A stretch of DNA of 64,000 nucleotides, from the NCBI RefSeq assembly GCF_004216915.1, contig NZ_SGXD01000001.1:1007013-1071012 (forward strand). Direction: 5' to 3'. Numbering within the stretch: position 1 is the stretch's first letter; each line of letters begins with the position of its first letter. The notes under the pieces are model-generated. The model was given only the letters and a program-made list of their open reading frames with translations. It made no database searches and was not told the DNA's origin. Positions 3,959 to 31,949 of this stretch are shown here, piece after piece. A program made the position numbers and the translations under genes. This DNA is from Motilibacter rhizosphaerae. GTDB lineage: Bacteria > Actinomycetota > Actinomycetes > Motilibacterales > Motilibacteraceae.

Positions 3959-5329
3959 CTAGCCGAGCCGCTGCAGCCGTGCGGCCGCGGCGGAGTGCCG
4001 GCGCAGCACGTCGTCCAGGCCCGGAGCCGTGAGCTCGCCGCCGCGGACGACCGTCTTGCCGGCGACCACGGTGTGCCGGGCGGACACGGGGCCGCAGCGC
4101 AGCCACGCCTCGACGGGGTCGGTCAGCGCGCCGGCGAACGCCAGGCCGGTGAGCGGCCAGCAGACGAGGTCGGCGACGGCGCCGGGGCGCAGGACGCCCA
4201 GCTCCCCCAAACGTCCGAGGCAGGCCGCCGACCCGAGCGTCGCGATCTCCAGGGCGTCGCGCGCCCCCATCGCCGTCGGCCCCTCGCGCAGCCGGCCCAC
4301 CAGCATGGCGTTCCGGGCTTCCATCCACAGCGAGGCCGAGTCCGTCGAGGACGAGCCGTCGCAGCCGAGCCCGACGTTGACGCCCGCCGCGCGCATCGCC
4401 CGCACGGGGGCGATGCCACCACCACCGATCATCATGTTGGACGACGGGCAGTGCGCGACGCCCACACCCGCGGCTCCGAGGCGGGCGATCTCGCCGTCGT
4501 CGGGATAGATGCAGTGCGCCACCCAGCTGCGGTCGGTGAGCCAGCCCACCTCCTCGAACTGGTCGATGGTGCGGCGCCCGAACGTCCTCGCGGCGAAGAG
4601 GTCCTCGTCCGGGTCCTCCGCGAGGTGCGTGTGCAGGCGTACGTCCAGCCGCTCGGCCAGCTCCGCCGTACGCCGCATGAGCTCCGGTGTCACCGAGAAC
4701 GGCGAGCACGGCGCGAGGGCGATGCGGACCATCGCCCCCCACGAGGGGTCGTGGTGGCGCGCCACGAGCGCCTCGCTGTCGGCCAGGATCTCGTCGTCGT
4801 CCTGCACCACCGAGTCCGGCGGAAGCCCGCCGTCCTTCTGCGACAGGCTCATCGAGCCCCGCGTCGGGTGGAAGCGCATGCCCAGCTCGCGGGCGGCGCT
4901 GATCTCCGCGCTGATGAGGTCGCCCGCGCCGCGCGGGTGGACGTAGAGGTGGTCGGTGCTCGTCGTGCAGCCGCCGAGGGCGAGCTCGGCGAGACCGACC
5001 CATGCCGAGAGGTACGACGCCTCCTCGTCCAGCCCGGCCCACAACGGGTAGAGCCCGGTCAGCCAGTCGAACAGCGACGCCCGCGTCGTCGGCCGGTACG
5101 CGCGGGTGAGGTTCTGGTAGATGTGGTGGTGGGTGTTGATGAGCCCGGGTGTGACGAGGCAGTCCTGCGCCGAGAGCTCCTCCTGCGCCGCAGGCGGCTG
5201 GTCCTGCGCCCCGCCCACCGCGCTGACCAGGCCGTCCTGCACCGCGACCCACCCGCCGGGCAGCTCGCGCCGCTCGTCGTCCATCGTGACGAGCAGGGTG
5301 GCGCCGGTGATGAGCAGGTCCGCGGTCAC
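3959..5329 (-). CDS. amidohydrolase, 8-oxoguanine deaminase-like
   Basis: 456-residue amidohydrolase-superfamily metalloenzyme. The family includes 8-oxoguanine deaminase (8-oxoguanine to urate plus ammonia) and the AtzB/TrzN triazine hydrolases. Metal ligands are visible: the HxH pair in GLINTHHHIYQNLTRA, a histidine in LHTHLAEDPDED, a histidine in SWVAHCIYPDD and the aspartate in GLGCDGSSSTDSA. The TSTDHLYVHP segment after the first ligands is typical of the 8-oxoguanine-deaminase branch. I prefer the GTG at 5329 (VTADLLITGATLL) to the ATG at 5386, which adds an unstructured leader; neither has a strong ribosome site. It diverges from the aldolase at 5410 and lies next to uricase, which would take its product. 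A triazine substrate is less likely but not excluded. Confidence 0.85.
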   Translation of the reverse strand: MTADLLITGATLLVTMDDERRELPGGWVAVQDGLVSAVGGAQDQPPAAQEELSAQDCLVTPGLINTHHHIYQNLTRAYRPTTRASLFDWLTGLYPLWAGLDEEASYLSAWVGLAELALGGCTTSTDHLYVHPRGAGDLISAEISAARELGMRFHPTRGSMSLSQKDGGLPPDSVVQDDDEILADSEALVARHHDPSWGAMVRIALAPCSPFSVTPELMRRTAELAERLDVRLHTHLAEDPDEDLFAARTFGRRTIDQFEEVGWLTDRSWVAHCIYPDDGEIARLGAAGVGVAHCPSSNMMIGGGGIAPVRAMRAAGVNVGLGCDGSSSTDSASLWMEARNAMLVGRLREGPTAMGARDALEIATLGSAACLGRLGELGVLRPGAVADLVCWPLTGLAFAGALTDPVEAWLRCGPVSARHTVVAGKTVVRGGELTAPGLDDVLRRHSAAAARLQRLG

Positions 5330-5409
5330 CCGGGGAGTCTGGTCAGCCGGTGTTTCTCCGCGGTGGCAGGGAGATTGCCGGGGCATGTCCGGTGGGTCGC
5401 CCGCTTAGG

Positions 5410-6537
5410 ATGCGGCTCCCCGACCTGCCGGAGGACGCCGTGCCCGAGCTGACCGACCTGCTCGCCCCTGTCGCGCAGCTCGACCTCGCGCCGGCGGCGA
5501 CACCGGCCCACCCGCTCCACACCTGCTACGTCCCGGCCGACCGAATGCGCCCCGGGGAGCACCTGCGGTGGGGCGAGGAAGCGCTGGCCCTGCTGGACTC
5601 CTGCGCGCCCGACGAGGAGGCGCTCGCCGCCGCGGTCGGACGCCCCCTCCCGCCCGGCACGTACGCGCGGGTGCGCGAGCTGCTCGCCGTGGCCCCGGTG
5701 CAGGACCTGCGGGTGGACCTGGAGGACGGCTACGGCGTCCGCCCCGACGACGAGGAGGACGCGGCGGTGGAGGCCGCGGTCGCGGCGCTCGCGGAGGCGC
5801 CGCCGCCGTCGTTCGGCCTGCGGGTCAAGTCGCTGGAGCCGGCGACGATGCACCGCGCCTTACGCACGCTCGAGGGCTGGACCGCCGCGCTCGCTGGGGC
5901 AGCCCTCCCCGCCGGCATCGTCACGCTGCCCAAGGCGCAGGACCCGCGGCAGGTCGAGGTCGCCGTTGCGGTGCTGGGCGAGCTGGAGCGCAGGACCGGC
6001 CTGCGGCCCGCGCTCGAGCTCCAGGTCGAGACCGCGCTCGGGGTCGTCGACCGGTCCGGGGCCACGACGGTCGCCGGCCTGCTCGCCGCCGGGCAGGGAA
6101 CGGTGACCGGGATCCACTTCGGGACCTACGACTTCACCGCGTCGCTCGGTATCGCTCCCCAGGAGCAGGCGCTCGACAACCCCGTGGCCGACGCGGCGAA
6201 GGACCTGCTCCAGCTGGTGGCCGCGACGCACGGAGTCCCGGTGAGCGACGGGTCGACCAACCTGCTGCCGGTCGGCGACGCGGGGCAGGTGCGTGGGGTC
6301 TGGGCCGAGCACACCCGCCTCGTCGAGCGTGGGCTGCGGCGCGGGCTGTGGCAGGGCTGGGACATGCACCCCGGGCACCTCGTCTCGCGCTGGACGGCGT
6401 GCACCGCCTTCTTCCTGGCGCGCCTGCCCGAGGTCCGCGAGCGGCTCGCCGGCGGGCGCGCGGGCGTCGCGGACGAGCCGGCGACCGTGCGCATGCTCGA
6501 GGCCTTCGACCGGCGCGCCCGGTCGCTCGGGCTCTGA
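5410..6537 (+). CDS. DUF6986-type HpcH/HpaI-like aldolase
   Basis: 375 residues. The fold family is the phosphoenolpyruvate/pyruvate-binding aldolase group (HpcH/HpaI/citrate lyase beta). Supporting segments are the acidic metal site VQDLRVDLEDGYGVRP, the strand RPALELQVETALGV with its conserved glutamate, GIHFGTYDFTASLGI and WDMHPGHLVSRW. The ATG at 5410 is chosen over the upstream in-frame ATG at 5350, which would overlap the divergent gene. It is transcribed toward uricase with a 75-base gap. In other actinobacteria such genes lie beside ureide-catabolism genes; a role in using glyoxylate or another C2-C4 product of purine breakdown is an inference from context, not shown by the sequence. 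Confidence 0.8.
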   Translation: MRLPDLPEDAVPELTDLLAPVAQLDLAPAATPAHPLHTCYVPADRMRPGEHLRWGEEALALLDSCAPDEEALAAAVGRPLPPGTYARVRELLAVAPVQDLRVDLEDGYGVRPDDEEDAAVEAAVAALAEAPPPSFGLRVKSLEPATMHRALRTLEGWTAALAGAALPAGIVTLPKAQDPRQVEVAVAVLGELERRTGLRPALELQVETALGVVDRSGATTVAGLLAAGQGTVTGIHFGTYDFTASLGIAPQEQALDNPVADAAKDLLQLVAATHGVPVSDGSTNLLPVGDAGQVRGVWAEHTRLVERGLRRGLWQGWDMHPGHLVSRWTACTAFFLARLPEVRERLAGGRAGVADEPATVRMLEAFDRRARSLGL

Positions 6538-6544
6538 GCCGCGC

Positions 6545-6561
6545 GGAAACCGAGCCGAAAC
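6545..6561 (+). promoter_or_regulatory. candidate operator, GGAAAC-N6-GAAAC direct repeat
   Basis: GGAAAC (6545-6550), six bases, then GAAAC (6557-6561), ending 51 bases before the uricase start. The same arrangement recurs at 19750-19766 (reverse orientation, before the permease operon) and, with one change (GGCAAC), at 14185-14201 before the xdh operon. An 11-base repeat period places both half-sites on one DNA face. A-rich words are rare in this DNA, so the recurrence suggests a shared regulator or promoter element. Confidence 0.6.
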
Positions 6562-6612
6562 AGCGGGGACACCGCGGCCGCGCAGACTGGCGGCCAGTTC
6601 CGAGGAGGGCGC

Positions 6613-7503
6613 ATGGGGCACCTGCTGGGCCACCACCAGTACGGCAAGGCGGAGATCCGTGTGGTGCGGCTCTTCCGCGACAGCGACCCGCACCAGATCG
6701 TCGACTACAACGTCTCGGTCGCCGTCTCCGGCGACATCGGCGAGACGTGGCTCTCGGGCGACAACTCGGCGTGCCTGACGACCGACGCGATGAAGAACAC
6801 CGTCAACGCGTTCGCCCGCTCGCAGCCCGACGCCGTGCGCCAGCCGGAGGAGTTCGCCCGCGTCCTCGCCCGCCACTTCGTCGAGACCGTGCCGCAGATC
6901 GGCACGGCCCGCGTCAGCATCGAGTCGTACGGGTGGGACCGGCTCGCCGGCCACCCGCACGCGTTCGCCCGCAGCGGGCGCCTCGTACGGACCTGCAGCG
7001 TCGTCCGCAGCAGCGACGAGGAGTGGGTGACGAGCGGGCTGCGCGACCTCGTCGTGCTCAAGACGACGGACTCGGAGTTCTGGGGGTTCTACACCGACGC
7101 GTACACCACCCTCCCGCCGACGCAGGACAGGATCCTCGCGACCGCAGTGACCGCACAGTGGTGGCACACCCCGGCCGAAGGGCCGCAGGACTGGGACGCG
7201 TCGCACCTCGCCGTCGTCGACGCGCTGACGGAGACGTTCGCCGGGCACCACAGCCTGGCGCTGCAGCAGACGCTGTTCGCGATGGGCGAGGCCGTGCTCG
7301 ACGCGGCCAAGGGTGTCGCGGAGATCCGCCTCTCGATGCCCAACAAGCACCACTTCCTGCTGGACCTCAGCGCCTTCGGCCTCGACAACCCCGGAGAGGT
7401 GTTCCACGCCGACGACCGGCCCTACGGCCTCATCGAGGGGACCGTCCGGCGGGAGGGCGCCGGGGAGCCGGGTCCGGCGTACGACCCCGGGCAGGCGTGG
7501 TAG
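6613..7503 (+). CDS. urate oxidase (uricase)
   Basis: 296 residues, the usual length of cofactor-free uricases. It oxidises urate with O2 to 5-hydroxyisourate and H2O2 in the cytoplasm. The catalytic pair is visible as K12 (HQYGKAEIRV) and T57-D58 (DNSACLTTDAMKNTV). Further family segments are VLKTTDSEFWGFYTD, IRLSMPNKHHFLLDL with the active-site histidine, and the GEVFHADDRPYG end. GAGGAGGGCGC precedes the ATG. It lacks the C-terminal SKL signal of eukaryotic forms. It converges with the hydroxyisourate hydrolase gene one base away, so the next enzyme of the pathway is encoded on the opposite strand. A candidate operator at 6545-6561 lies in its leader. Confidence 0.96.
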   Translation: MGHLLGHHQYGKAEIRVVRLFRDSDPHQIVDYNVSVAVSGDIGETWLSGDNSACLTTDAMKNTVNAFARSQPDAVRQPEEFARVLARHFVETVPQIGTARVSIESYGWDRLAGHPHAFARSGRLVRTCSVVRSSDEEWVTSGLRDLVVLKTTDSEFWGFYTDAYTTLPPTQDRILATAVTAQWWHTPAEGPQDWDASHLAVVDALTETFAGHHSLALQQTLFAMGEAVLDAAKGVAEIRLSMPNKHHFLLDLSAFGLDNPGEVFHADDRPYGLIEGTVRREGAGEPGPAYDPGQAW

Positions 7504-7504
7504 C

Positions 7505-7816
7505 TCAGCTGCCGCGGTAGGTGCTGTAGCCGAACGGCGACAGCAGCAGCGGGACGTGGAGGTGCCCGTCGTCGCTCGCCCGGAAGGCCAGGACGACCTC
7601 CGGGAAGAACGCGTCCGGCCCGAGGTGCCCGGCGACGTCGAAGATCAGCCGCCACAGGCCCGGCCCCCACTGCTCGGTCGGCACGAGGTCCTTCGCGCGC
7701 CCGTCGGCGTCCGTGACGGCCAGCGCCACGGGCCCGGAGACGTCCTCGACGCGGACGGGCAGGTCGGGGACCGGTCGCCCGGTCGCGAGGTCCAGCACGT
7801 GGGTCGAGAGCGTCAT
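7505..7816 (-). CDS. uraH: 5-hydroxyisourate hydrolase
   Basis: 103-residue transthyretin-related protein that hydrolyses 5-hydroxyisourate to OHCU, the step after uricase. The N-terminal STHVLDLATG motif (catalytic H6), the VRVEDVSG strand with the conserved arginine, the HLHVPLLLSPFGYSTY segment and the terminal tetrapeptide YRGS are all intact. Its ATG at 7816 overlaps the stop of the upstream fused allantoicase gene by four bases (ATGA), so the two are translationally coupled. It is the last gene of the minus-strand operon beginning near 14114. Confidence 0.95.
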   Translation of the reverse strand: MTLSTHVLDLATGRPVPDLPVRVEDVSGPVALAVTDADGRAKDLVPTEQWGPGLWRLIFDVAGHLGPDAFFPEVVLAFRASDDGHLHVPLLLSPFGYSTYRGS

Positions 7817-9282
7817 GGTCCCTCCAGCAGGCGGCGGACGCGCAGCAGCAGGATCTCCAGCTGCTGCGCGGAGGCCACCTCGAGCTCGGTCTCGGGGTCG
7901 TTGTCGAGCCGCTGCCGCAGCAGGGCCAGCATCTCGTCGGCCGTGCGCCCGCTCGCGCGCACGACGTAGGTGAAGCCGAAGCGCTCCTCGTACGCCGCGT
8001 TGCCCGTCGCGATCTCCGCCAGCACCGCCGTGTCCGCCCCGTCGGCTCCGGCCTGCTCGCGCCGCTCCTGGCTGCCCGCGCGAGGCTTCTCGCCGATCCG
8101 GGGGTGGGCCAGCAGTGCCTCCAGCCGGTCACGGTCGGGGAGGGTGTTCCACACCTCCTCGGCGACCGAGGGGAGCGCGTCGAGGAAGGGCCTGCGACTC
8201 AGCACGTCCTCGACCCACCGCGACGACCCGCACACCGCTGTGAGCTCGCGGCGCAGCGCCGCCTCCGGCAGCGCGTCGAGCCACCGCTCGGCCCACTCGC
8301 GTCGCCCGGCCGCGGTGGGCACGGCGGCGGTGCGCAGCCGCGCGACCCCGCCGTCCGGGTGCACGGTGAGCAGGAGCTCGCGGACCGGCTCGGCGCTGTC
8401 GACCGCGAGGTGGTGGCGCTGGTCCGGCTGCAACGGCGTCGGCGGCACCAGCGGGACCCACTCCTCGCGGGAGCTCCGCCCGCTCAGCTCGGCCGACTCG
8501 GGCGCATTGCCCTTGAAGTGGCGCGTGTCCAGGATGACCTGCCGCAGCGTGCACTCGGTCGCCAGCGTGAGGCGCACCCAGTCCGCTCCCGGACCGCGCC
8601 GCCGCCTCGTCTCCCAGCCCTCGCCCATGCTGCGCGCCTCACCGGGCGCGACGAGGTTGGCCCTGCGCCCGAAGTGCATGTCGCTGCAGGACGGCACGAT
8701 CCCGCCCCACTCCGCGGCCGCGAGGTCGACGGTGAGCCCGTCGGCGAGCCGTGGGTCGGGCAGCGCCGGGCCGTGCACGCGGAGCCGCGCGATGCCGCCG
8801 TCCGGCGCGGCGCGGAGCCGGACGTGGGTGACCGTCCGCGACACCGGCACGGGCAGCGCGTGGAGCGCGTCGGGCTCGAGCGGCTGCGGCGGCAGCAGCT
8901 CCTCCCACTCCGCGGCGAGGACCTCAGAAGGGGAGGGGTTGCCGGGCAGCCAGGTCCCGTCGAGGGCGGCGGACTCCATCTGGTTGCCGGAGAACCACCC
9001 GGTGTCCACGACGACGACCGTCGGGACGCCCGGGGCGCCGAGCCTGATGACCGCCCAGTCGGCCGCGCCGTCGTAGCGCCGCTCCCCGCGGCGGCGCCGC
9101 GTCTCCCACCCGTCCATCCACTGGCCGTGCTCGTCGTAGGTCCCGCGCCGGCTCACCGGCCGGTCGGGCTGCAGCATCCGCTCGGCGGGGCCGAAGAACT
9201 CGTCGCTCACTGCGATGACCGTGCCGCCGAAGCGCGCCCCCGTGAGGTCGGGGTACGCGTCGAGCCGCGGGTCCGTGCTCAT
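7813..9282 (-). CDS. alc: allantoicase fused to OHCU decarboxylase
   Basis: 489-residue bifunctional protein. Residues ~1-325 are an allantoicase (allantoate to ureidoglycolate plus urea) with its two related halves: GARFGGTVIAVSDEFF and DGWETRRRRG in the first, GGIVPSCSDMHFGRRANLV and GEGWETRRRRG in the second. Residues ~330-489 are an OHCU decarboxylase domain (OHCU to S-allantoin) with CGSSRWVEDVLSRRPF and the catalytic AHPRIGEKP motif at about 392-399. The reading frame runs through without a stop. The two joined activities are not consecutive: allantoinase acts between them. ATGA overlaps link it to allantoinase upstream and hydroxyisourate hydrolase downstream. The urea released can feed the urease encoded at 19839-24336. 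Confidence 0.92.
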   Translation of the reverse strand: MSTDPRLDAYPDLTGARFGGTVIAVSDEFFGPAERMLQPDRPVSRRGTYDEHGQWMDGWETRRRRGERRYDGAADWAVIRLGAPGVPTVVVVDTGWFSGNQMESAALDGTWLPGNPSPSEVLAAEWEELLPPQPLEPDALHALPVPVSRTVTHVRLRAAPDGGIARLRVHGPALPDPRLADGLTVDLAAAEWGGIVPSCSDMHFGRRANLVAPGEARSMGEGWETRRRRGPGADWVRLTLATECTLRQVILDTRHFKGNAPESAELSGRSSREEWVPLVPPTPLQPDQRHHLAVDSAEPVRELLLTVHPDGGVARLRTAAVPTAAGRREWAERWLDALPEAALRRELTAVCGSSRWVEDVLSRRPFLDALPSVAEEVWNTLPDRDRLEALLAHPRIGEKPRAGSQERREQAGADGADTAVLAEIATGNAAYEERFGFTYVVRASGRTADEMLALLRQRLDNDPETELEVASAQQLEILLLRVRRLLEGP

Positions 9283-10625
9283 GCGCCCGCCCCGACGGAG
9301 ACGCCACGGTTGAGCAGCAGGCCACGCGGCGGCGCCGCCTGCTCGACGCGCTCGCCGCGGAGCCACGTCTGGGCCACCACACCGGAGAGCCGCTTGCCGT
9401 GCCATGGCGAGATCTTGTGCCGCTGCAGCAGGTCCTCGGCCTTCACCACGAACTCCGCATCGGGGTCCCACACCACGAGGTCCGCGTCCTTCCCCACGTC
9501 GATGCCGCCCTTCTGCGGCAGGCCGGCGATGCGCGCCGGTGTCGCCGACTGCCAGCGCGCCATGTCGACGAGTCCGTAGCCGAGCTGGCGCGCCGCGGTC
9601 CAGACGACGGGGAGGGAGGTCTGGATGCCCGAGATGCCGCCCCACGCCGTACCGAAGTCCCCGGTGTCGAGGGACTTCACCTCCGGCGACGCCGGTGAGT
9701 GGTCCGAGACCATGCAGTCGATGACGCCGTCGCCCAGGGCGCGCCACAGCGCAGCGCGGTTGGCCTCCGAGCGCACGGGGGGCGCGCACTTGCACTGGGT
9801 CGCACCGTCGGGGATGTCCTCTGCGCTCAGCGAGAGGTAGTGCGGGCACGTCTCGACCGTGATCGGCAGCCCTTCGGCGCGGGCGGACCGCAGCAGCGGC
9901 AGGCACTCCTGCGCCGAGAGGTGGAGGATGTGCGCGCGGCCACCGGTCGTGCGGACCGCGTCGATGACCGACTGCACGGCTTCGACCTCGGCCTCGGGAG
10001 GGCGGGAGGCGACGTACGCGGCGTAGCTCCGGCCCTGCGGCGCAGGCGCGCGCTCCAGCGGCCCGGGTGCCTCCGCGTGCACGATCACCGGGACGCCGAG
10101 CCGCGCGGTCACCGCGAGCGCGCGCTCGAGCTCGCCCGGCCCGATGGAGCAGAACTCGTCGACACCGCTCGGCACGAGAAACACCTTGAAGCCACACACA
10201 CCGGCGGCCACGAGCGGCGCGACGGACGACGTGTCGTCGGAGGTGATGCCTCCCCAGAAGGCGACGTCGACGACGACCTGGTCCTGCGCCGCCGCGCGCT
10301 TCTCCGCCAGAGCCCCGACCGTCGTCGTGGCCGGGATGGAGTTCAGCGGCATGTCGACGATGGTCGTGACACCACCGGCGGCAGCGGCGGCGGTGGCCGT
10401 TGCGAAGCCCTCCCACTGCGTACGTCCCGGCTCGTTGACGTGCACGTGGCTGTCGACGAGCCCGGGAGACACGACGAGCCCGGTCACGTCGTGGAGCTCG
10501 ACGTCACGGGGGAGCGGCGCGGTCCCAGAGAGGACCGCGCTGATCGCGCCCTCGTCGATCAGGACCGTCGCCGGGCGCACCCCGGAGGGCAGCACCACAC
10601 GGTCGCTGCGCAGGGCTGTGGTCAC
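9279..10625 (-). CDS. allB: allantoinase
   Basis: 448-residue dihydroorotase-like amidohydrolase that opens allantoin to allantoate. The dinuclear metal site is readable: HxH in LVDSHVHVNEPGRTQWEG, the lysine to be carbamylated in VCGFKVFLVPSGVDEF, histidines in VIVHAEAPG and ILHLSAQE, and the aspartate in CMVSDHSPASPEVK. The start is a GTG at 10625 whose GTGA overlaps the stop of the xanthine dehydrogenase molybdo-subunit. It lies between xdhA and the fused allantoicase, all within one coupled operon. Dihydropyrimidinase or hydantoinase activity is the main alternative in this superfamily, but the context favours allantoin. Confidence 0.94.
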   Translation of the reverse strand: MTTALRSDRVVLPSGVRPATVLIDEGAISAVLSGTAPLPRDVELHDVTGLVVSPGLVDSHVHVNEPGRTQWEGFATATAAAAAGGVTTIVDMPLNSIPATTTVGALAEKRAAAQDQVVVDVAFWGGITSDDTSSVAPLVAAGVCGFKVFLVPSGVDEFCSIGPGELERALAVTARLGVPVIVHAEAPGPLERAPAPQGRSYAAYVASRPPEAEVEAVQSVIDAVRTTGGRAHILHLSAQECLPLLRSARAEGLPITVETCPHYLSLSAEDIPDGATQCKCAPPVRSEANRAALWRALGDGVIDCMVSDHSPASPEVKSLDTGDFGTAWGGISGIQTSLPVVWTAARQLGYGLVDMARWQSATPARIAGLPQKGGIDVGKDADLVVWDPDAEFVVKAEDLLQRHKISPWHGKRLSGVVAQTWLRGERVEQAAPPRGLLLNRGVSVGAGA

Positions 10626-12847
10626 GGCGTCTCCTCCACGACGAGGTCCTCGGGGCGCACCGGCAGGCGGGTCAGCGGGTTCCCGGTCGCCGCCCGCAGC
10701 GCGGCGACGACGGCGGCGGGCGAGCTCACGTGGGGCGCCTCGCCGACGCCCTTCGCGCCGTACGGCGCCCGCGGGTCGGGCACCTCGACCAGGCGGACGT
10801 CGACGTCCGGGACGTCGAGCGTCGTCGGCAGCAGGTAGTCGCCGAAGCCCGGGCCGAGCACGCGACCGCCGTCGAGCACGAGCTCCTCCATCAGCGCGAG
10901 CCCGGCTCCCTGCACGGACCCGCCCTCCACCTGCCCGAGCAGACCGAGCGGGCTCAGCGCGCGGCCGACGTCCTGCGCGGTCGCGAGCTGCACGAGCCGG
11001 GAGGTCCCGAGGTCGAGGTCGACGTCGACGACGGCGCGGTGCGCGACGTACGCGAAGGCGACGTGCGGCGAGCCCTGCCCGCGCGCGTCGAGCCCCGTCG
11101 TGGGGTGGTGGCGGTAGGTCCGTTCGGCGTCCACACCGTCGCCGACGAGCTCGCCGAGCGGGACGGACTCCCCGGCCTCGGAGGCGACCGCCCTGCCCTC
11201 GAGGAGCTCCCACGCCCCAGCGGGTACGCCGCGGCCCGCCGCCCGCACGCGCAGCTCGTCGGCCACGGCGGCGCAGGCCATCCGCACCGCACCGCCGGAC
11301 ACCCAGGTCTGCCGGGCCGCGCTCGTCGAGCCGGCTGAGGCGATCGAGGTGTCCGCCTGCAGCAGCTCGACCTCGTCGACACCGAGCTCGGAGCGGACGA
11401 TCTGGCGCGCCAGCGTGACGAACCCCTGCCCGACCTCGGCGCAGGCGCTGCGCACGACGGCGCGCACGGTGCCGTCCACGACCTCCAGCCGGACGTGCGC
11501 CGTCGAGGGGTCGTCGTAGCCCTCGGAGAACGCAATGTTCTTGTAGCCGAGAGCGATGCCGATGCCGCGGCGCACCCGTGCAGGATCGGCGCAGCGGCCC
11601 TGGCCGCCCGGCAGGAGGAGCTCGTCGGCCTCGTCGTGCCGTGCCGGCAGCGGGATCTGCGCGAGCTCGGCGAGCACCTCGTGGGCGGGTGACGGGTCGA
11701 CGACCTCCTGCCCGGTGGGCAGGCGGTCGCCGGGACGTACGGCGTTGATCTCGCGCAGCTGCAGCGGGTCCATGTCGAGCGCCGCAGCGAGCCGGTCCAT
11801 CTGGGCCTCGTGGCCCGCGCACACCTGCACGACGCCGAACCCGCGCATCGCGCCGTTGGGTGGGTTGTTTGTGCGCACCACCAGGCCCTCGAGGCGCGCG
11901 TTGGGCACGGCGTACGGGCCGGCGGCCATCGTCGTCGCGTTGCCCACGACCGCCCAGGACGAGCTCTGGTACGCGCCACCGTCGAGCAGGATCCGCGCGC
12001 TCACCGAGACGAGGCGGCCGTCGCGCGTCGCCGTGTGCCGGTAGTGCATGCGCGCGGGGTGCCGGTGCACGTGGCCGAGGAACGACTCCTGCCTGGTGTA
12101 CACCATCTTCACGGGCTTGCCGGTGAGCATGGCGAGCAGGCTGCAGTGCACCTGCAGCGTCACGTCCTCCCGGCCGCCGAACGCGCCGCCGACCCCGCCG
12201 AGCGTGACCCGGACGAGCTCGGACGGCAGGGCGAGGCAGTCCGCCACCTGGCGCTGGTCGACGTGGAGCCACTGGGTGGCGACGGTGAGATCGACGCCGC
12301 CGTCGGCCGCCGGGACGGCCAGCGCGGCCTCGGGGGCGAGGAACGCCTGGTCCTGCACGCCGATGACGTAGTCGCCCTCGACCACGACGTCGCCCTCGGC
12401 CTCCGGGTCGCCGTGCTCCACCACCAGGTGGCGGTAGGTGTCGTCCACGGCGAGCTCGGGATCGGTCAGGGGAGCCAGCACCTCCCAGGTCGCGACGACG
12501 GCGCGGGCGCCGGCCTCGGCGGCGGCGCGGGTCTCGGCCGCGACGGCTGCGACGGGCTCGCCGTGGTAGCGCGCGACGTCGCTGACGAAGACCGCCTGAT
12601 CGGTGACATCCAGCCCGTAGCAGGGGTTCCCCGGCACGTCGGCCGAAGTCGCGACGCGGACGACGCCCGCCACCGCGTACGCCGGGGTGACGTCGAGCGC
12701 GACGAGCCGGGCGTGCGGGTGGGGGCAGCGGACGGTCGCCCCGTGCAGCATGCCGGGGACGATGAGGTCGTTGGCGTAGGTGAAGGTTCCCGTCGCCTTG
12801 GCCGTGCCGTCGGGCCGACGAGCGCTCCCGCCGATCCGCTCGGTCAC
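10622..12847 (-). CDS. xdhA: xanthine dehydrogenase, molybdopterin-binding subunit
   Basis: 741-residue molybdenum-cofactor subunit (E. coli-type naming). It hydroxylates hypoxanthine and xanthine to urate with the FAD and Fe-S partners encoded just upstream. Signatures are GGVGGAFGGREDVTLQVH (cofactor contact), GAMRGFGVVQV with the substrate-site arginine, CAEVGQGFVTLARQIV, and AKGVGEAPHVSSPAAV with the catalytic glutamate. The GTG start at 12847 overlaps the Fe-S subunit stop (GTGA). At ~740 residues it is a normal split-subunit form. A close relative acting on another N-heterocycle cannot be excluded, but uricase and allantoin genes in the same cluster make xanthine the best guess. Confidence 0.93.
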   Translation of the reverse strand: MTERIGGSARRPDGTAKATGTFTYANDLIVPGMLHGATVRCPHPHARLVALDVTPAYAVAGVVRVATSADVPGNPCYGLDVTDQAVFVSDVARYHGEPVAAVAAETRAAAEAGARAVVATWEVLAPLTDPELAVDDTYRHLVVEHGDPEAEGDVVVEGDYVIGVQDQAFLAPEAALAVPAADGGVDLTVATQWLHVDQRQVADCLALPSELVRVTLGGVGGAFGGREDVTLQVHCSLLAMLTGKPVKMVYTRQESFLGHVHRHPARMHYRHTATRDGRLVSVSARILLDGGAYQSSSWAVVGNATTMAAGPYAVPNARLEGLVVRTNNPPNGAMRGFGVVQVCAGHEAQMDRLAAALDMDPLQLREINAVRPGDRLPTGQEVVDPSPAHEVLAELAQIPLPARHDEADELLLPGGQGRCADPARVRRGIGIALGYKNIAFSEGYDDPSTAHVRLEVVDGTVRAVVRSACAEVGQGFVTLARQIVRSELGVDEVELLQADTSIASAGSTSAARQTWVSGGAVRMACAAVADELRVRAAGRGVPAGAWELLEGRAVASEAGESVPLGELVGDGVDAERTYRHHPTTGLDARGQGSPHVAFAYVAHRAVVDVDLDLGTSRLVQLATAQDVGRALSPLGLLGQVEGGSVQGAGLALMEELVLDGGRVLGPGFGDYLLPTTLDVPDVDVRLVEVPDPRAPYGAKGVGEAPHVSSPAAVVAALRAATGNPLTRLPVRPEDLVVEETP

Positions 12848-13308
12848 GCGTCCTCCGCCGCGAGGGCGTGGACCGCGGCGATGATGCGGGCGTATCCCGT
12901 GCAGCGGCAGAGGTTCCCGCTCAGCGCCTCGCGCACGGCGGTGTCGCTCGGGTGCGGGTCCGCGGCCAGCAGGGCCGTGATCGCGACGGCCATCCCCGGC
13001 GTGCAGAAGCCGCACTGGACGGCCCCGGCCTCGACGAGGGCCTGCTGCACGCGCGAGGGTGCGTCAGGGGTGCCGAGGCCGGCGGCCGTCGTCACCTCGC
13101 GCCCTTCCGCATCGGCGGCCAGCACGGTGCAGCTCGTGGCGAGCGTCCCGTCGAGCAGCACGCTGCAGGTCCCGCACCGGCCCTGCAGGCAGCCCTCCTT
13201 GACCGCGGTGCATCCGACGCGCTCGCGCAGCGCCGCGAGCAGGGTGTCGGAGGCGGCATCCTCCCCGAGCTCGTGCGGGGTGCCGTCGACCGAGAGCACC
13301 CAGCTCAT
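12844..13308 (-). CDS. xdhC: xanthine dehydrogenase, [2Fe-2S] subunit
   Basis: 154-residue iron-sulfur subunit carrying two [2Fe-2S] clusters that pass electrons from molybdenum to FAD. The plant-ferredoxin cluster ligands are C40, C45, C48 (EGCLQGRCGTCSV) and C60 (TSCTV). The second cluster uses VQCGFCTPGM and GNLCRCTGY, all four cysteines present. The ATG at 13308 overlaps the FAD-subunit stop. The symbol follows E. coli naming for the Fe-S subunit and must not be confused with the XdhC-type insertion chaperone encoded at 14289. Confidence 0.94.
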   Translation of the reverse strand: MSWVLSVDGTPHELGEDAASDTLLAALRERVGCTAVKEGCLQGRCGTCSVLLDGTLATSCTVLAADAEGREVTTAAGLGTPDAPSRVQQALVEAGAVQCGFCTPGMAVAITALLAADPHPSDTAVREALSGNLCRCTGYARIIAAVHALAAEDA

Positions 13309-14114
13309 GCGGCGACCGGCTCGAGCTGCGCGGCGGCCCGGCCGACCGCGCGGGCGGCGAGGACGCCGGCCGTGCGCCGTCGGTGGGCGGCACTGGTGCG
13401 CAGTCCGGACGTGGCCCAGCCGATCCCGCGCTCCACCAGCGCCGCGACCTGGGCGAGTGCAGTCGGGTCGAGCGCGCTCGCGGCCACGGCCTCCGCCTCC
13501 GGCATGCGCAGCGGCTCGCTGGCCACGCCGCCGACGGCGATCCGCACACCGCCCGGACCGAGCACCGCCGCGGCGCTCGCCGTTGCCCCGATGACGGCCT
13601 GGCGCTCTCCCGCCTTGAGGTACGCGACTCCCGGCCCCGGGAGCGCGTAGACCACCGCGGTGACGAGCTCGTCGGGGCGCCGGGCCTCCGCGCGCCAGGC
13701 AGTGAGCGGCAGCCGGCGCAGGCCGCCGCGGCTCTGCACGAGGACGTCGGCCTCGAGGGCGGCGAGCGCGGTGACGAGGTCCCCTGCGCCTCCCGTGCCG
13801 AGCGCGCCGCCGACCGTGCCCGACCCGCGCTGGGCGGGTGAGCCCACGGTCAGGGCCGTCGCCCGCAGCAGCGGCAGCTCCCCGCTGACCAGCTCGGCGT
13901 AGGTCGTCATCGCCCCGACGACGACGCGGTCCCCGATGACCTCGACGCGCCGCAGCTCGGGGATGCGCTGGAGCGACACCAGGTGCGGCGGGTCGAGCCG
14001 CCCCGCCGACCGGTCGACGAGCAGCGTCGTCCCCCCGGCGACGGGCACAGCTCCCGGGAGGTCGGCGAGCGCGTCGAGGGCAGCGCTCACGCTGGTGGGT
14101 CGGGCGACGGTCAA
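13305..14114 (-). CDS. xdhB: xanthine dehydrogenase, FAD-binding subunit
   Basis: 269 residues from a TTG start at 14114. I chose it because AAGGAG lies six bases upstream and the protein then begins LTVARPTSVSAALDAL, the normal family start; the ATG at 14189 would add a polar leader across the presumed promoter. FAD-site segments are AVPVAGGTTLLVDRSAG, VVVGAMTTYAEL and QRGSGTVGGALGTGGAGDL. The C-terminal CO-dehydrogenase-flavoprotein domain follows. It heads the minus-strand operon xdhB-xdhC-xdhA-allB-alc/uraD-uraH, every junction being a 4-base overlap. The repeat at 14185-14201 lies 70 bases upstream. Confidence 0.9.
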   Translation of the reverse strand: MTVARPTSVSAALDALADLPGAVPVAGGTTLLVDRSAGRLDPPHLVSLQRIPELRRVEVIGDRVVVGAMTTYAELVSGELPLLRATALTVGSPAQRGSGTVGGALGTGGAGDLVTALAALEADVLVQSRGGLRRLPLTAWRAEARRPDELVTAVVYALPGPGVAYLKAGERQAVIGATASAAAVLGPGGVRIAVGGVASEPLRMPEAEAVAASALDPTALAQVAALVERGIGWATSGLRTSAAHRRRTAGVLAARAVGRAAAQLEPVAA

Positions 14115-14184
14115 CCGCTGCTCCTTCCGGCTCTCGGGGCGGCCACCGGTCACGCTGCCACACGCGAGGGGCGCTCCGGCCGTC

Positions 14185-14201
14185 GGCAACCGCGCCGAAA
14201 C
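14185..14201 (+). promoter_or_regulatory. candidate operator, GGCAAC-N6-GAAAC
   Basis: GGCAAC (14185-14190), six bases, GAAAC (14197-14201) in the 174-base divergent region between the xdh operon (start 14114) and the XdhC-type gene (start 14289). It matches the uricase and permease elements except for one A-to-C change in the first half. The flanking bases also match the uricase copy: AACCG, one variable base, then GCCGAAACAGC. Its position could serve both divergent promoters. Confidence 0.55.
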
Positions 14202-14288
14202 AGCTGCACCGGTGAGGTTTTACACCGTGGACATCTGCGCCGCTGTCGCGTTCACCCAGCCGCGACGTGGGCTTCCTACCGTGGTGCC

Positions 14289-15239
14289 ATGCTGCGCGAG
14301 GTGTGGCCGTTCGTCGCGGCCGAGCGGGGAGCCGGGCGACGGGTGGTGCTGGCCAGGCTCGTCGCGCGCTCCGGCCCCGGAGCGCGCCCGGTCGGTGCGG
14401 CCCTGGCGGTGTCCGAGTCCGGCGCGTGGGCCGGGTCCGTGTCCGGCGGCTGCGTCGACGGTGACGTGCTCGCCGTCGCCCGTGCCGTGCTGGACGGAGC
14501 GGCACCGCGTACCGTCCGCTGCTCGGCCGGGGGCGACCGGATGCCGTGGGAGGCGGGGCCCAGCTGCCGCTCGCTGCTGCAGGTGCTCGTCGCGCCCGCC
14601 CCCGAGGACGGGACCGTGGTCGCGGTGTCGGAAGCACTGGAGGGTGTGGTGCCGGTGACGGTGCGGACGTCGCTCGACCCGCCGTACGCGATGGTGCTGG
14701 GGGAGGACCCGTTGCCCGGAAGGACGTTCGACGAGGTGCTCGACCCTCGTCCGCTGCTCGTGCTCGTCGGCGCCACCGACGTCGCCACGGCCCTGGCGCC
14801 GTTGGCCGACGCGGTCGGGAGGCGGGTCGTCGTGGTCGACCCGCGGCCGGACTTCGCGCAGCCGCAGCGCGTCCCCGGCTCCGAGGTCCGGTGCGCGTGG
14901 CCGCAGCAGGTCCTGCCCTCGCTGGGGCTGCAGGAGCGCGACGCCGTGCTCGTCCTCACCCACGACGCGAAGATCGACGACCCGGCCCTGCGCGCCGCCC
15001 TCGGCACCGCCGCGGGGCACATCGGCGTGCTCGGCAGCCGGGCCACGCACGCCGAGCGCCTCTCCCGACTGGCGGGAGCGCCGGGGCTGGGACGGATCTC
15101 GGGCCCGGCCGGCCTCGACCTCGGCGGCAGCACGGCAGCGGAGGTGGCGCTGTCGATGCTCGCCGAGGTCGTGGCCGTGGCGCACGGGCGCGGGGGAGAG
15201 CGGCTCTCGGCCACGATGGGGCCGGTGCAGGCCGCATGA
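14289..15239 (+). CDS. XdhC/CoxI-family molybdoenzyme maturation protein
   Basis: 316 residues. XdhC-type proteins bind sulfurated molybdenum cofactor and deliver it to xanthine dehydrogenase. The N-terminal XdhC/CoxI domain shows SGGCVDGDVLAVARAVLDG, with the cysteine thought to contact cofactor. The C-terminal Rossmann-like domain shows VVVVDPRPDFAQPQRVPG, VLVLTHDAKIDDPALRAAL, HIGVLGSRATHAERL and GGSTAAEVALSMLAEVVA. The ATG at 14289 gives a compact leader downstream of the divergent control region. The following gene overlaps by ATGA, so the chaperone and a cofactor-editing enzyme are co-made. Confidence 0.92.
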   Translation: MLREVWPFVAAERGAGRRVVLARLVARSGPGARPVGAALAVSESGAWAGSVSGGCVDGDVLAVARAVLDGAAPRTVRCSAGGDRMPWEAGPSCRSLLQVLVAPAPEDGTVVAVSEALEGVVPVTVRTSLDPPYAMVLGEDPLPGRTFDEVLDPRPLLVLVGATDVATALAPLADAVGRRVVVVDPRPDFAQPQRVPGSEVRCAWPQQVLPSLGLQERDAVLVLTHDAKIDDPALRAALGTAAGHIGVLGSRATHAERLSRLAGAPGLGRISGPAGLDLGGSTAAEVALSMLAEVVAVAHGRGGERLSATMGPVQAA

Positions 15240-15790
15240 GCGTCTGGGCCCTGGTCCTCGCCGCCGGCGCCTCGCGCCGCCTCGGCCGTCCCAAGCAGCT
15301 CGAGGTCGTCCGTGGTCGCCCGCTGCTGGCGCACGCCCTCGACGCCGCGTCCGCCGCGGACGAGGTGCTCGTGCTCACCGGGGCGTACGCCGAGCGGATG
15401 GGCGGCCTGCTGCCCGACGTGCCCGTCCTCCACATCGCGAACTGGGGGCGCGGGATGGGTCACGTCCTCGCCTGCGGCGTCCGCGCCCTGCCGCCCGAGG
15501 CGGAGGCCGTGGTCGTGCTCCTGGCGGACACCCCCGGGATCGGGGCGAGCGCCGTGGGTGAGGTGATCGCGGCCTGGCACGCCGGCGCCGGGCCCGTCGT
15601 CTCGGCGGAGTACGACGGCGTCTCCGGGCACCCGCGGCTCTTCGACCGGTCGCTGTTCGCGGAGCTCGGGGACCTCGAGGGTGACACCGGCGCGGCCTCG
15701 CTGCTGCAGCGCCACCCGGTGGCCCTGGTGCCCGTCCTGGGCGACCCCGTCGACATCGACGACGAGGAGACCCTCGCCCTCGCGCGCTGA
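15236..15790 (+). CDS. MobA/MocA-like molybdenum cofactor nucleotidyltransferase
   Basis: 184 residues of the NTP-transferase fold. Such enzymes attach CMP or GMP to molybdopterin; next to xanthine dehydrogenase the cytidylyltransferase (MocA) role is expected. The nucleotide loop LVLAAGASRRLGRPKQL is intact, with the metal-binding aspartate in VVLLADTPGIGA and the segment GVSGHPRLFDRSLF. It is slightly shorter than typical MocA (~190-200). Coupled to the XdhC-type gene by a 4-base overlap. It ends six bases before the convergent codA-like gene. Confidence 0.88.
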   Translation: MSVWALVLAAGASRRLGRPKQLEVVRGRPLLAHALDAASAADEVLVLTGAYAERMGGLLPDVPVLHIANWGRGMGHVLACGVRALPPEAEAVVVLLADTPGIGASAVGEVIAAWHAGAGPVVSAEYDGVSGHPRLFDRSLFAELGDLEGDTGAASLLQRHPVALVPVLGDPVDIDDEETLALAR

Positions 15791-15796
15791 GGATCC

Positions 15797-17059
15797 TCAA
15801 CGGGGACGGAAGTCCACCGCCTCCTCGTCCCCGTGCCACACGACCCTGCTCTGCGCCGGCTCCGTCCGCGCCACGACCTTCCCGTCGCGCAGCACGGCGA
15901 AGCGGCGCGGCTGCAGCCGCAGCGCCTCCGCCTCCGAGGTGGCGTCGTGCACCACGAGGTCGGCCGGGCCGCCGAGGCGGATGCCGTAGTCCGCGAGCCC
16001 GAGGGCCGCTGCCGGCGCGGTGGTCACCATGGAGACCAGCCGCCGCAGCTCCTCGTCCCCGCTGAGGTGGCCGATGTGGGCGAGCACGAACGCCGCCTGC
16101 ATCGGGTCGCCGGAGCCGAGGGGGTACCACGGGTCCATCACCGAGTCGTGCCCGACCGCGACGTTGACCCCGGCCGCCTGCAGCTCCTTGACCCGGGTGA
16201 GCCCACGGCGCACCGGTCCGGTGTCGAAGCGCCCCTGCAGCACGGCGTTGTCGAGCGGGTTGACCGTCATGTGCAGGCCGGCGCGGGCGATGTTGCGGAT
16301 GAGGCGGTACGCGTAGGCCGCGCCGTAGGAGCCCATCGCCGTGGTGTGGCTGGCGGTGACCCGCCCGGACATGCCGCGCTTGATCGTCTCGGCGGCCATG
16401 ACCTCGACGAAGCGCGCGTGGTCGTCGTCGGTCTCGTCGCAGTGGATGTCGACCCGCAGCCCGTGCTCCTCGGCGAGCGCGAAGGCGAACTGCACGCTCG
16501 CCACACCGTCCTCGCGGGTGAGCTCGTAGTGCGGGATGCCCCCGACGACGTCGGCGCCGAGCGCGACCGCCTTGCGCATCAGCGCTTCCCCGCCCGCGAA
16601 GCCGAGGACGCCCTGCTGCGGGAAGGCGACGATCTGCAGGTCGACGAGCCCCCGCGCCTCCTCGCGCAGCTCGACCAGTGCCCGCAGCGCGCGGAGCTCG
16701 GGGTCGCAGACGTCGACGTGCGTGCGGACGTGCTGGACGCCGTGGGCGAGCTGCCAGCGGAGGACCTGCCGCGTACGCGCCAGCACGTCGTCGACGGAGA
16801 GGGTGGCGACCCGCTCGGCCCAGACGGCGATCCCCTCGAACAGCGAGCCGGAGACGTTGGGCCGGGGCTGGCCGACGGTGAGCACGGCATCGAGGTGGAT
16901 GTGCGGCTCGACGAGCGGCGGGGTCACCAGCCGGCCGGCCAGGTCGAGGACCTGCGCCGGACTGCCGTCGGGCTCGACGAACCTGCCGTCCTGCACGGCG
17001 AGGTCGACGAGCTCCGGGACGCCCGGGAGGCGGGCGCCCCGGAGGAGCAGGTCGCTCAC
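15797..17059 (-). CDS. codA: cytosine deaminase-type amidohydrolase
   Basis: 420 residues, the length of CodA. It is expected to deaminate cytosine to uracil; CodA relatives also act on isoguanine, 5-methylcytosine or creatinine. Metal and catalytic residues: H53 and H55 ([11 protein letters not shown]), [13 protein letters not shown] (histidine and proton-shuttle glutamate), [13 protein letters not shown] (histidine), and the aspartate in [18 protein letters not shown]. The last segment is close to the CodA signature. It is the third gene of an operon with an NCS1 permease and a Rieske oxygenase; its ATG overlaps the oxygenase stop by four bases. Uracil is the likely product, but the exact base is uncertain. 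Confidence 0.88.
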
Positions 17060-18270
17060 GCTGCGGCCCGGACGAACGCCAGCAGTTCGCGGCGGAGGGC
17101 CACGCCGAGGCGGTCAGCCCGCACGTGCATCTCGTCCTTCAGGTCGAGCGGGAGCACCCGCAGGGTCAGCGTCTCCTGCAGCGCGAGGTCCTCGGCGAGG
17201 ACGGCCTGCTCGAAGGCGACCTCGTTGGCGACGACCTGGGGCGTCGGCTCGCCCAGCCCGCCGATGTCGTGCAGCAGCATCTTGGTGTAGATCCGCGTGC
17301 TGTCCGCGGACTCCGGCTGGGCGAAGAAGAGGATCGTCTTCACCGCGCCCACGTCGAGCTCCTCGAGGCGCAGCACCAGCTGGAACGGCGCGCGGTAGAC
17401 GTAGGTCGCCCGTCGGCGCTGGCGCAGCGGACGCAAGCCCGCCGCCACGCCGGGGTCCTCGGGGTTCTCGAACCACTGCTCCTGCACGCTGCGGAAGCCG
17501 CCGGGCTCGGGCAGGACGTCGTACGCCTCGACGACCGTCGCCGCCTCGGAGCCGAAGGTCCCCGTGTGCACGAACGGGAAGTGCGCGACGTCGAGGAAGT
17601 TGTCCGCGACGAACCCGGCCGGTGCTGGTGTCCGGTCCGGCGGGAGCCAGGCACCGGCGTACGCCGCGTCCTCCGCATCGGGCTCGTCGAACAGCGGCAC
17701 GAGCGGTTCCTCTGGCGCGAGCCAGACGAGCCCCCAGCGCTCCGCCAGCGCGTACGGCTCGGGCTCCGCGCGCAGCCCGGTCCCCGACCGGGAGAGGGAC
17801 CACGTCCGGCCGAGCAGCCGCACCTCGTGCGCGGCACCGACCTCGGTGGAGAGCGCGATCGGGTGCCAGGCGCGCAGCAGCGCGGGATCCTCGTTGCCCA
17901 GCCCGGGGATCTCCTGCTCCGCCTCCGTGTCCTCCGCGTCGAGCAGGACCTCGACCGCGCCGTCCACCTCGCGGACCGGCGGCCCGGGCGGCAGCGACGC
18001 CCGAGGGGGTACGCGGTCGTGCCCGAGCGACGGGACGAGCGTGCACGTGCCGGCCGCGTCGAACTCCCATCCGTGGTAGGCGCACTGCAGCCGGCCGCCC
18101 GCGACGCTGCCGGTCACCAGGGGTACGCGGCGGTGCGGGCAGAGCGCCGGGAGCAGCGTCGCCGGGCCGTCCGGCTCGAGCCGCACGAGCACCCACTCCC
18201 GCCCGCCGACGCGTACCTGCCGCGGCTCGGTCCCCACGTCGGCGCTGCGGGCGACCGGCGTCCAGCTCAC
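17056..18270 (-). CDS. Rieske-type non-heme iron oxygenase
   Basis: 404 residues. The N-terminal Rieske domain binds a [2Fe-2S] cluster through C44, H46, C63 and H66 (CPHRR and CAYHGWEF). The C-terminal catalytic domain has [17 protein letters not shown], with H230 and H235 as mononuclear iron ligands and N224/D227 nearby. Between them, residues ~130-195 ([37 protein letters not shown]) look like a second, degenerate Rieske fold lacking ligands. No reductase or ferredoxin gene is adjacent. It is coupled by 4-base overlaps to an NCS1 permease and a CodA-like deaminase. This context suggests hydroxylation or N-demethylation of a purine or pyrimidine; the substrate is unknown. Confidence 0.88.
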
Positions 18271-19691
18271 GCCGGCAGCCGGACCGTCCGCCGCGCCTCC
18301 ACGGTGGCGATCGCGGCGTACAGCAGGGCGGCGACGGCGAAGCCCACCTCGAAGGTCAGGTCGCCGAGCGCGGGGTGGTGGCTCGGCAGCGGAGCCTTGT
18401 ACTTCGTCTGGTTGCTGAACAGCCCGATCGAGACCGCCATGCCGACGGCCATGGCCACCCAGCCCGCGAAGGGGTTGTGGCGCTGGTTGAACAGCAGGCC
18501 AGCCACCTGCTGGCGGCGGCGCAGGAACCAGTCCGTGAAGTACACGCCGAGCCACGGCCCGATCCAGTAGGCGATGACGAGCAGGAAGTCCTCGTACTTC
18601 TCCCCGGCGTCGTCGAGCGAGGTCAGCGCGAGGATGAAGCCGATCGTCCCGAAGCCCACGGCGACGATCGCGCGGCGCAGCGAGAGCGGGAGCTTGATGC
18701 CCAGGGCGAGGAACGAGATCGCGCCGGAGTAGATGTTGATGGCGTTGGCCGAGACAGCGCCGAGCGCGATGCAGAGCAGCGTGAGCTTCCCCAGCCACGT
18801 CGGCAGGTGCGCGACGAACTGCGAGGTCGGGCTGCCGTCCCCCGCACCGCCGATCGTCATGGAGGCGGCACCGGCGATCTCGAGGACCGTGCAGGAGATG
18901 AAGACCCCCAGCCCGGCGTACACCGCGACCTTGGCCTTGCTCACGTCGCGCGGCAGGTAGCGGGTGTAGTCGGCCGCGTAGGGGTTCCAGCCCGCGGCGT
19001 AGCCGAAGGTCGCACCCAGCAGCACGAGCCAGCCGCCGATGCCGCCGTGGTGTCCGGAAGCGCCGGGGTGGGACTTGCTGAGGATGACGACGGTCGTCAC
19101 CGCGAAGACGATGCCGAGCACGGGGAACGCCCAGCGCTCGAAGGCGTGGACCATGTTGTGCCCGAGGAACGCCACGGCCAGCTGGGCGATCACCACGACG
19201 ACGAGGCAGAGCCAGTCGGGCAGGCTCGTCAGCGAGGCCAGGGCGAGCGCCCCGCTGACGCTGTTGACCGCGAACCAGCCGATGCCGGCCGTGACGGCGT
19301 TGAGCCCGGCGGGGAGGAGGTTGCCGAACCAGCCGAACGGGATCCGGCTGAGGATCATCTGCGGCACGCCGTACTCCGGCCCGCGCGCGGACAGGATGCC
19401 CTGCGTGACCCCGCCCAGCGCGGAGCCGACGACGATCGCGGAGGCCGCCTCCCAGAACGTCAGCCCGAAGAACGCGACGCCGATGACGCCGACGAAGACG
19501 GTCGCGAACTCGAGGTTCGGCGACATCCAGGTCCAGAGCAGCTGGACGGGCGTCCCGTGCCGCTCGCCGGGGGGCACGGCCTCCGCGCCCCCGGGCTCGA
19601 CGGCGGCGATCCTCGTGCCGTACGAGCCCTCCCGCAGCTCCAGCAGGTCCACCCCGGCCAGGTCGCTCCCCGGCGCAGCCGTCGCGGTCAT
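18267..19691 (-). CDS. NCS1-family nucleobase permease
   Basis: 474 residues, about 12 membrane segments. Nucleobase:cation symporter-1 family importers take up cytosine, purines, uracil, hydantoin or allantoin. Family segments are [15 protein letters not shown] near the N terminus, [33 protein letters not shown] and AIAYWIGP-like text ([19 protein letters not shown]). The ATG at 19691 has GAGGAGGACCG in front. It leads the permease-Rieske-codA operon (GTGA overlap with the oxygenase) and diverges from the urease operon. The 19750-19766 repeat is 59 bases upstream. Cytosine is suggested by codA in the operon. Confidence 0.92.
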
Positions 19692-19749
19692 CGGTCCTCC
19701 TCGTGGGCCGCCCTCCCACGGGCGGACGGAAGGACTGTCCTGCCGCCGG

Positions 19750-19766
19750 GTTTCACTGGCGTTTCC
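19750..19766 (-). promoter_or_regulatory. candidate operator, GGAAAC-N6-GAAAC (minus orientation)
   Basis: Read on the minus strand: GGAAAC (19766-19761), six bases, GAAAC (19754-19750), exactly as in front of uricase. It is 59 bases upstream of the permease start and 73 bases from ureA, so it could also act on the divergent urease promoter. A further GGGGAAAC on the minus strand at about 19800-19793 may be an extra half-site. Confidence 0.58.
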
Positions 19767-19838
19767 TCTTCGTCGCCGAGGATGAAGTTCTCGTTTCCCC
19801 GGCCGGACCGGTGCGTCGGCGCGGTTAGGGTCCCGGTC

Positions 19839-20141
19839 ATGCGGCTCACCCCCCACGAGCAGGAGCGCCTGATGGTGTCGTACGCCGCGGACCTCGCGCT
19901 GCGGCGCAAGGCCCGCGGGGTCAAGCTCAACGCCCCCGAGTCCACGGCCGTCATCGCCTCGTTCCTCCTCGAGGGAGCCCGCGACGGGCGCACGGTGACC
20001 GACCTCATGGAGGCCGGCCGGCACGTGCTGGCCCGCGAGGACGTGATGAGCGGGGTGCCCGAGATGCTCGACGAGGTGCAGGTCGAGGCGACCTTCCCCG
20101 ACGGCACCAAGCTCGTCACCGTCCACCACCCCATCCCGTGA
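19839..20141 (+). CDS. ureA: urease subunit gamma
   Basis: 100 residues, standard for UreA. Structural subunit of the cytoplasmic nickel urease (urea to two ammonia plus CO2). Typical text is [40 protein letters not shown] and [18 protein letters not shown]. First gene of ureABCFGD. The divergent region with the permease operon (19692-19838) carries the repeat element. The last codons overlap the GTG of ureB. Confidence 0.97.
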
Positions 20142-20498
20142 CCGACAGTCCGACCGGAAGGACATCCGTGCTGCCAGGCGAGATCCTCCACGCCGAGGGG
20201 CCGGTCGTCATCAACGCCGGACGGCCCGTCCTCTCGCTCGTCGTCGAGAACACCGGGGACCGGCCCGTCCAGGTCGGGTCGCACTACCACTTCGCCGCCG
20301 CCAACCCGGCCCTCGCCTTCGACCGCGACGCGGCATGGGGCCACCGGCTCGACGTGCCGGCGGGGACGGCGGTCCGCTTCGAGCCGGGCGTCACCCGCGA
20401 GGTCGACCTGGTGCCCCTCGCCGGACGCCGGGTCGTGCCCGGGCTGCGCCTCGAGTCCGCCGGCCCGCTGGACGGCGCGCGCGACGGGAGCGGCGACC

Positions 20499-20506
<8 letters not shown>
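20138..20506 (+). CDS. ureB: urease subunit beta
   Basis: 122 residues. The beta subunit packs around the catalytic alpha subunit. Signature segments are [41 protein letters not shown]-type text (shown in part: [16 protein letters not shown]), [15 protein letters not shown] and [13 protein letters not shown]. The GTG start at 20138 overlaps the ureA stop by four bases, and the gene overlaps ureC by eight bases. The C-terminal tail beyond the conserved core is short and polar. Confidence 0.96.
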
Positions 20507-22217
<1,711 letters not shown>

Positions 22218-22230
22218 TGGCACTGCTCTG

Positions 22231-24888: not shown

Positions 24889-24990
24889 GGTCCTCCTTCG
24901 TGCTCCCCTCGCCCATCTTCGGCGGGAGATGCGTGCGGCGGCAAGGTTTACGTTCGGGAAACAGGATCGTTGCTGCCCCGCTACGCCACA

Positions 24991-26140: not shown

Positions 26141-26167
26141 CCACCCGAACACCGAGGAGATCCCGAC

Positions 26168-27271: not shown

Positions 27272-27297
27272 GGCCGGGGCGCAGCCGAGGAGGAACC

Positions 27298-31938: not shown

Positions 31939-31949
31939 AGGAGCTCCCC

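Follow-up and report, generated by a model that had tools for sequence, protein, structure and literature searches.

A direct-repeat element shared by nucleobase and urea catabolism promoters of Motilibacter rhizosphaerae as a predicted GlnR box

The window analysed here, a 64 kb stretch of the Motilibacter rhizosphaerae genome (contig C1, positions 1007013-1071012; 1.5 % of 4,315,149 bases in 15 contigs), carries a cluster of nucleobase catabolism and urease genes in which several promoters share a two-part element, GGMAAC-N6-GAAAC. The cluster begins with genes for an 8-oxoguanine deaminase-type amidohydrolase (3959-5329, minus strand; NF006055, 600 bits versus a cut-off of 532) and for a DUF6986 protein resembling HpcH/HpaI aldolases (5410-6537, plus strand), next to which lies uricase (urate oxidase; 6613-7503, plus strand; TIGR03383, 305 bits). 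The following minus-strand genes encode a 5-hydroxyisourate (HIU) hydrolase of the transthyretin family (7505-7816), an allantoicase fused to an OHCU decarboxylase domain (7813-9282; family search), an allantoinase (9279-10598; TIGR03178) and the pucD-, pucE- and pucC-like subunits of a xanthine dehydrogenase (xdh; 10622-14114), the first gene of the latter starting with a TTG at 14114 that is preceded by GGAAGGAG. XdhC-like and molybdenum cofactor cytidylyltransferase-like (MocA-like) maturation genes are encoded on the plus strand at 14289-15790 (family search). An operon for an NCS1 nucleobase permease, a Rieske oxygenase and a cytosine deaminase-type amidohydrolase (15797-19691, minus strand) and the urease operon ureABC-F-G-D (19839-24336, plus strand) complete the cluster.

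Exactly three copies of the element were found in the window by direct search, at the coordinates and on the strands that an earlier sequence-only reading of this DNA had reported. The uricase-side copy GGAAACCGAGCCGAAAC, with the form GGAAAC-N6-GAAAC, occupies 6545-6561 on the plus strand and ends 51 bp before the uricase ATG (6613); the xdh-side copy GGCAACCGCGCCGAAAC occupies 14185-14201 on the plus strand, 70 bp from the TTG start of the xdh operon; and the permease-side copy GGAAACGCCAGTGAAAC occupies 19750-19766 on the minus strand, 58 bp from the permease start (19691). In each copy the half-site GAAAC or GCAAC is followed by GAAAC in direct repeat, with starts 11 bp apart and thus separated by one helical turn, the form of site typical of OmpR-family regulators. 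The inventory could be extended beyond these three sites. The 14185 box has the divergent xdhC-like gene (14289) on its other side, the 19750 box likewise has the divergent ureA (19839), whose start is 72 bp away, and a further related site, GCCAC-N6-GAAAC (GCCACCGCGGAGAAAC, 5352-5367, minus strand), lies between the 8-oxoguanine deaminase and DUF6986 genes; all three points had been missed in the sequence-only reading. Additional half-sites in phase were present at two boxes. At uricase, GACAC at 6568-6572 (plus strand, +22 from the first half-site) gives GAAAC-N6-GAAAC-N6-GACAC, and at the permease GCGAC stands upstream at 19772-19776, giving the triple half-site GCGAC-N6-GAAAC-N6-GAAAC (19750-19776, minus strand) between the permease operon and ureABC. 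All sites in the window were intergenic. An additional GGAAAC at 19793-19798 (minus strand) is 32 bp away from the nearest GAAAC, its role being uncertain.

The strict motif had an expected number of 0.01 matches in the window according to dinucleotide shuffles, and at least three matches were reached in none of 100 shuffles. Genome-wide only five strict matches were obtained, three of them in these 64 kb. The earlier statement that three such hits are unlikely by chance is thus borne out, and numerous equal matches in coding DNA were looked for and not found.

The element matches the GlnR boxes published for other actinobacteria, and the search was therefore widened to GnnAC-N6-GAAAC. Reported boxes are gTnAc-n6-GaAAc for Streptomyces coelicolor and t/gTAAC-n6-Gc/aAAC for Mycobacterium smegmatis (PMC10704036, Table 2), and Gn2AC-n6-GnAACA was derived from 53 chromatin immunoprecipitation (ChIP) peaks of M. 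smegmatis GlnR (PMC3662644); the uricase and xdh copies also have the final A of the last consensus. The widened motif had 25 matches in the genome versus 4 for the backward-read control. A spacer of 5 bp gave no match (control 5) and one of 7 bp gave 6 (control 6), hence the 6-bp spacing is highly specific. The same was seen within the window, where among spacers of 0 to 20 bp N6 gave five matches and every other spacer none or one. A binomial probability of about 3e-5 was calculated for the crowding of three of five strict matches into 1.5 % of the genome, and likewise for that of five of the 25 wide matches. Outside called genes lay 21 of the 25 wide matches and inside them four, as judged by a simple codon-usage gene caller trained on this window, which may miscall genes elsewhere; in the window, about 90 % of the sequence is taken up by called genes. 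For extra GnnAC half-sites, the in-phase position +22 was the most enriched offset (5 sites versus a mean of 0.58 per offset). Looser patterns were less useful: GnnAC-N6-GnAAC, with 7 matches in the window versus 3.84 expected, was too weak by itself, and GnnAC-N6-GnnAC was dropped as not discriminating.

The motif was also located at promoters of other nitrogen genes of this genome. The glnA promoter has a perfect array of four half-sites, GTAAC-N6-GAAAC-N6-GTGAC-N6-GAAAC, and the wide motif is present at the promoters of amtB, of a type III glutamine synthetase and of a NirD-type Rieske protein (nitrite reductase small subunit) beside a nirB-like nitrite reductase gene. A GAAAC-N6-GAAAC box belongs to a whiB gene (contig C2, 821257-821273), and a wide-motif site adjoins a DUF1989 gene. 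In one genome of the same genus, boxes precede the orthologs of amtB (82 % identity at the protein level), glnA (91 %) and whiB (98 %), an argument for the identity of the GlnR box in this lineage. Beyond the same-genus copy of the whiB box, another genus of the family has a related GnnAC-N6-GAAAC site at this place; whiB is likely a conserved GlnR target, as are whiB genes in M. smegmatis. The occurrence at glnA, amtB, the nitrite reductase gene, whiB and urease characterizes the element as a general GlnR box and not as a special link between purine and pyrimidine genes. Of the earlier prediction that one regulator joins these two groups, the shared regulator is well supported by the five strict matches and the intergenic placement of the wide ones, while the special link is not.

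The genome encodes a candidate for this regulator. Among 23 matches to the OmpR-type DNA-binding domain one clear GlnR ortholog was recognized, a protein of 236 amino acids (contig C1, 4259-4966). Its best PDB matches were 8hih and 8hig, both full-length regulators, and 8hml, a DNA-binding domain; its own DNA-binding domain is nearly identical to theirs. These three structures are GlnR entries, listed in the match table only as response regulators. Matches to the receiver domains 4o1i and 4o1h were also found, the latter being named GlnR. As a lead only, the protein is 71 % identical over 115 residues to an N-terminal sequence of a Streptomyces GlnR. The GlnR gene is present in 75 of the 79 genomes of the class sample, among them all four genomes of the same genus and family, with 79-88 % identity.

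These observations together suggest that the shared element is very probably a GlnR box and that the cluster is part of a GlnR-controlled system of nitrogen scavenging, in which binding, activation and signal are predicted. GnnAC half-sites, two and sometimes three or four, one every 11 bp, would be the binding sites of GlnR, a global nitrogen regulator of the OmpR family. During nitrogen shortage GlnR would occupy the sites of the cluster; the most likely effect would be activation of the uricase gene, of the xanthine dehydrogenase/allantoin and nucleobase permease/deaminase operons and of the urease operon divergent from the latter. The cell could then import guanine, xanthine, urate and pyrimidines and convert them via allantoin and urea to ammonia, the substrate for glutamine synthetase. 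MtrA may share the sites. Activation, the signal and the direction of control at each divergent promoter are most likely as in M. smegmatis and Streptomyces, from which they are taken by analogy.

The M. smegmatis GlnR regulon (PMC3662644, PMC4222082, PMC4617892) is alike in its consensus, Gn2AC-n6-GnAAC(A), and in its intergenic, sometimes divergent sites; control of divergent gene pairs by GlnR has been described (PMC3662644). Its targets include amtB, whiB, nucleobase permeases, an allantoicase and, beside uricase, the MSMEG1293 locus, and ChIP peaks were obtained for MSMEG1293, an allantoicase and nucleobase permeases (PMC3662644). Nitrogen starvation raises the uricase mRNA of M. smegmatis, and glnR is needed for growth on uric acid, guanine and uracil (PMC4222082); induction of nucleotide catabolism including uricase by nitrogen limitation was also reported (PMC4617892). 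Unlike in M. smegmatis, a single cluster of M. rhizosphaerae has predicted boxes directly before a monocistronic-looking uricase and before the xdh/allantoin operon, as well as one that the permease operon shares with urease. The S. coelicolor box (PMC10704036) shares the layout of a-site and b-site, the 6-bp spacer, the b-site GAAAC, tandem multiple boxes and the targets glnA and ureA, with amtB as a further S. coelicolor target; urease is under GlnR control (PMC10704036). In contrast to the S. coelicolor a-site GTnAC, the a-sites in the cluster are GAAAC, GCAAC, GCGAC or GCCAC. Literature searches joining GlnR with uricase and xanthine dehydrogenase, or with purine and urate oxidase, found no publication; the support comes from the M. 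smegmatis papers.

Several observations weigh against assigning the cluster sites to GlnR, and most concern their conservation. With the thresholds used, uricase, xdh and urease were not found in the four genomes of the same genus and family, so that the sites could not be compared at close range. For the xdh box, no convincing parallel was found in families of the class other than its own (one site versus none in the control). Of the 80 uricase genes of named genomes that matched best, which span Geodermatophilus, Microbispora, Actinoplanes, Amycolatopsis and others, only two have a box at the promoter of the uricase operon; intergenic enrichment at these 80 loci was weak (5 versus 2 in the control). 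Membership of uricase in the GlnR regulon is hence lineage-dependent, or the boxes diverge from this motif. No clear -10/-35 regions were assigned, thus activation rather than repression is proposed by analogy, and MtrA has been reported to bind GlnR boxes (cited in PMC10704036, PMC11000389). In favour of GlnR, intergenic DNA of other families of the class had the pattern GnnAC-N6-G[AC]AAC seven times near uricase genes and nine times near ureA, each versus none in the backward control, with no excess in coding DNA (2:2 for uricase, 1:2 for ureA); some of the sites counted around uricase, ureA or xdh lie elsewhere than the promoter of the query gene. The uricase boxes of these families are patchy (several of 28). 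Relatives of the flavin adenine dinucleotide subunit of xdh were tried as a conservation test and were not informative, being mostly distant (about 33-44 % identity). Among the sampled members of the genus and family, only this species seems to have the cluster as a whole.

The patchy uricase boxes and an xdh box with no clear parallel in relatives are what chance matches in GC-rich DNA could produce. Against this stand the expectation of 0.01 in the window, the spacer counts of 25 versus 0 and 6, and the crowding of strict and wide matches into this small part of the genome, and chance is hardly credible as an explanation. A dedicated purine/pyrimidine regulator is somewhat easier to conceive, as PucR-, XdhR- or HucR-like proteins serve these pathways in other bacteria, but it would not explain the same motif at glnA, amtB, whiB and the nitrite reductase gene. 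A family search identified no regulator among the genes called between 3959 and 24336, and the GntR/FCD regulator gene beside urease (24232-24873) lacks the shared element in its promoter; a dedicated regulator is therefore very unlikely.

Binding by MtrA, or competition of MtrA and GlnR for the sites, has slightly more in its favour and is still improbable. An MtrA ortholog is encoded in the genome (best PDB match 2gwr, MtrA), it belongs to the OmpR family as well, and MtrA has been reported on GlnR boxes of nitrogen genes, recognizing GlnR-like sequences and repressing glnII, nirB and ureA (PMC11000389; PMC10704036, citing Zhu et al. 2019). However, for the best-matching sites, those of glnA, amtB and urease, there is precedent of control by GlnR, and both the spacer of 6 bp and the GAAAC b-site fit this regulator. 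MtrA is reported to act differently from the role proposed here for GlnR, as a repressor in nitrogen-rich medium, and the 14-bp MtrA sequence reported for S. avermitilis differs from the present motif. Both proteins may bind, which would leave the role of GlnR in place.

Assignment to GlnR names the likely regulator behind a motif that had lacked an explanation, leads to the prediction that purines, pyrimidines and urea serve this actinobacterium as nitrogen sources during starvation, and provides a list of predicted GlnR targets for a lineage in which, to our knowledge and after limited searches, GlnR has apparently not been studied. What emerges is a neat further instance of known biology, a global nitrogen switch already described and not a new system, which extends the present picture without changing it. 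More tentatively, and with somewhat less than even confidence, the cluster may have been acquired or retained here and wired to GlnR by at least four predicted boxes, with the steps from nucleobase uptake to urease forming one scavenging unit and uricase boxes gained repeatedly across lineages.

Some further sites and neighbouring genes were observed. On contig C3 (840957-845398) two box-like sites about 4.4 kb apart precede a BioY family gene and the DUF1989 gene, the latter beside a TetR regulator. A 3-kb stretch of contig C2 (583870-586885) with almost no called gene and no Rfam match contains one box-like site, GAGACCCGGGGGAAAC, and an identical copy of this 16-mer lies on contig C4 (20986-21001); the C2 site was counted among the 21 outside genes, a status that is uncertain as the caller finds few genes there. 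An IS110-type transposase gene (930-2939) borders the nucleobase cluster on the left and is a possible sign of mobility. To the right, the divergent GntR/FCD regulator gene borders both urease and a region (25106-33083) in which two ring-opening amidohydrolases of the AtzD/TrzD type (cyanuric acid hydrolase/barbiturase family) surround an NMT1-type ABC transporter, a TauE-type exporter and an amidase. A GGAAAC at 24957-24962, near the AtzD-type gene, is without an in-phase partner and was not counted. The region possibly serves oxidative pyrimidine or s-triazine catabolism.

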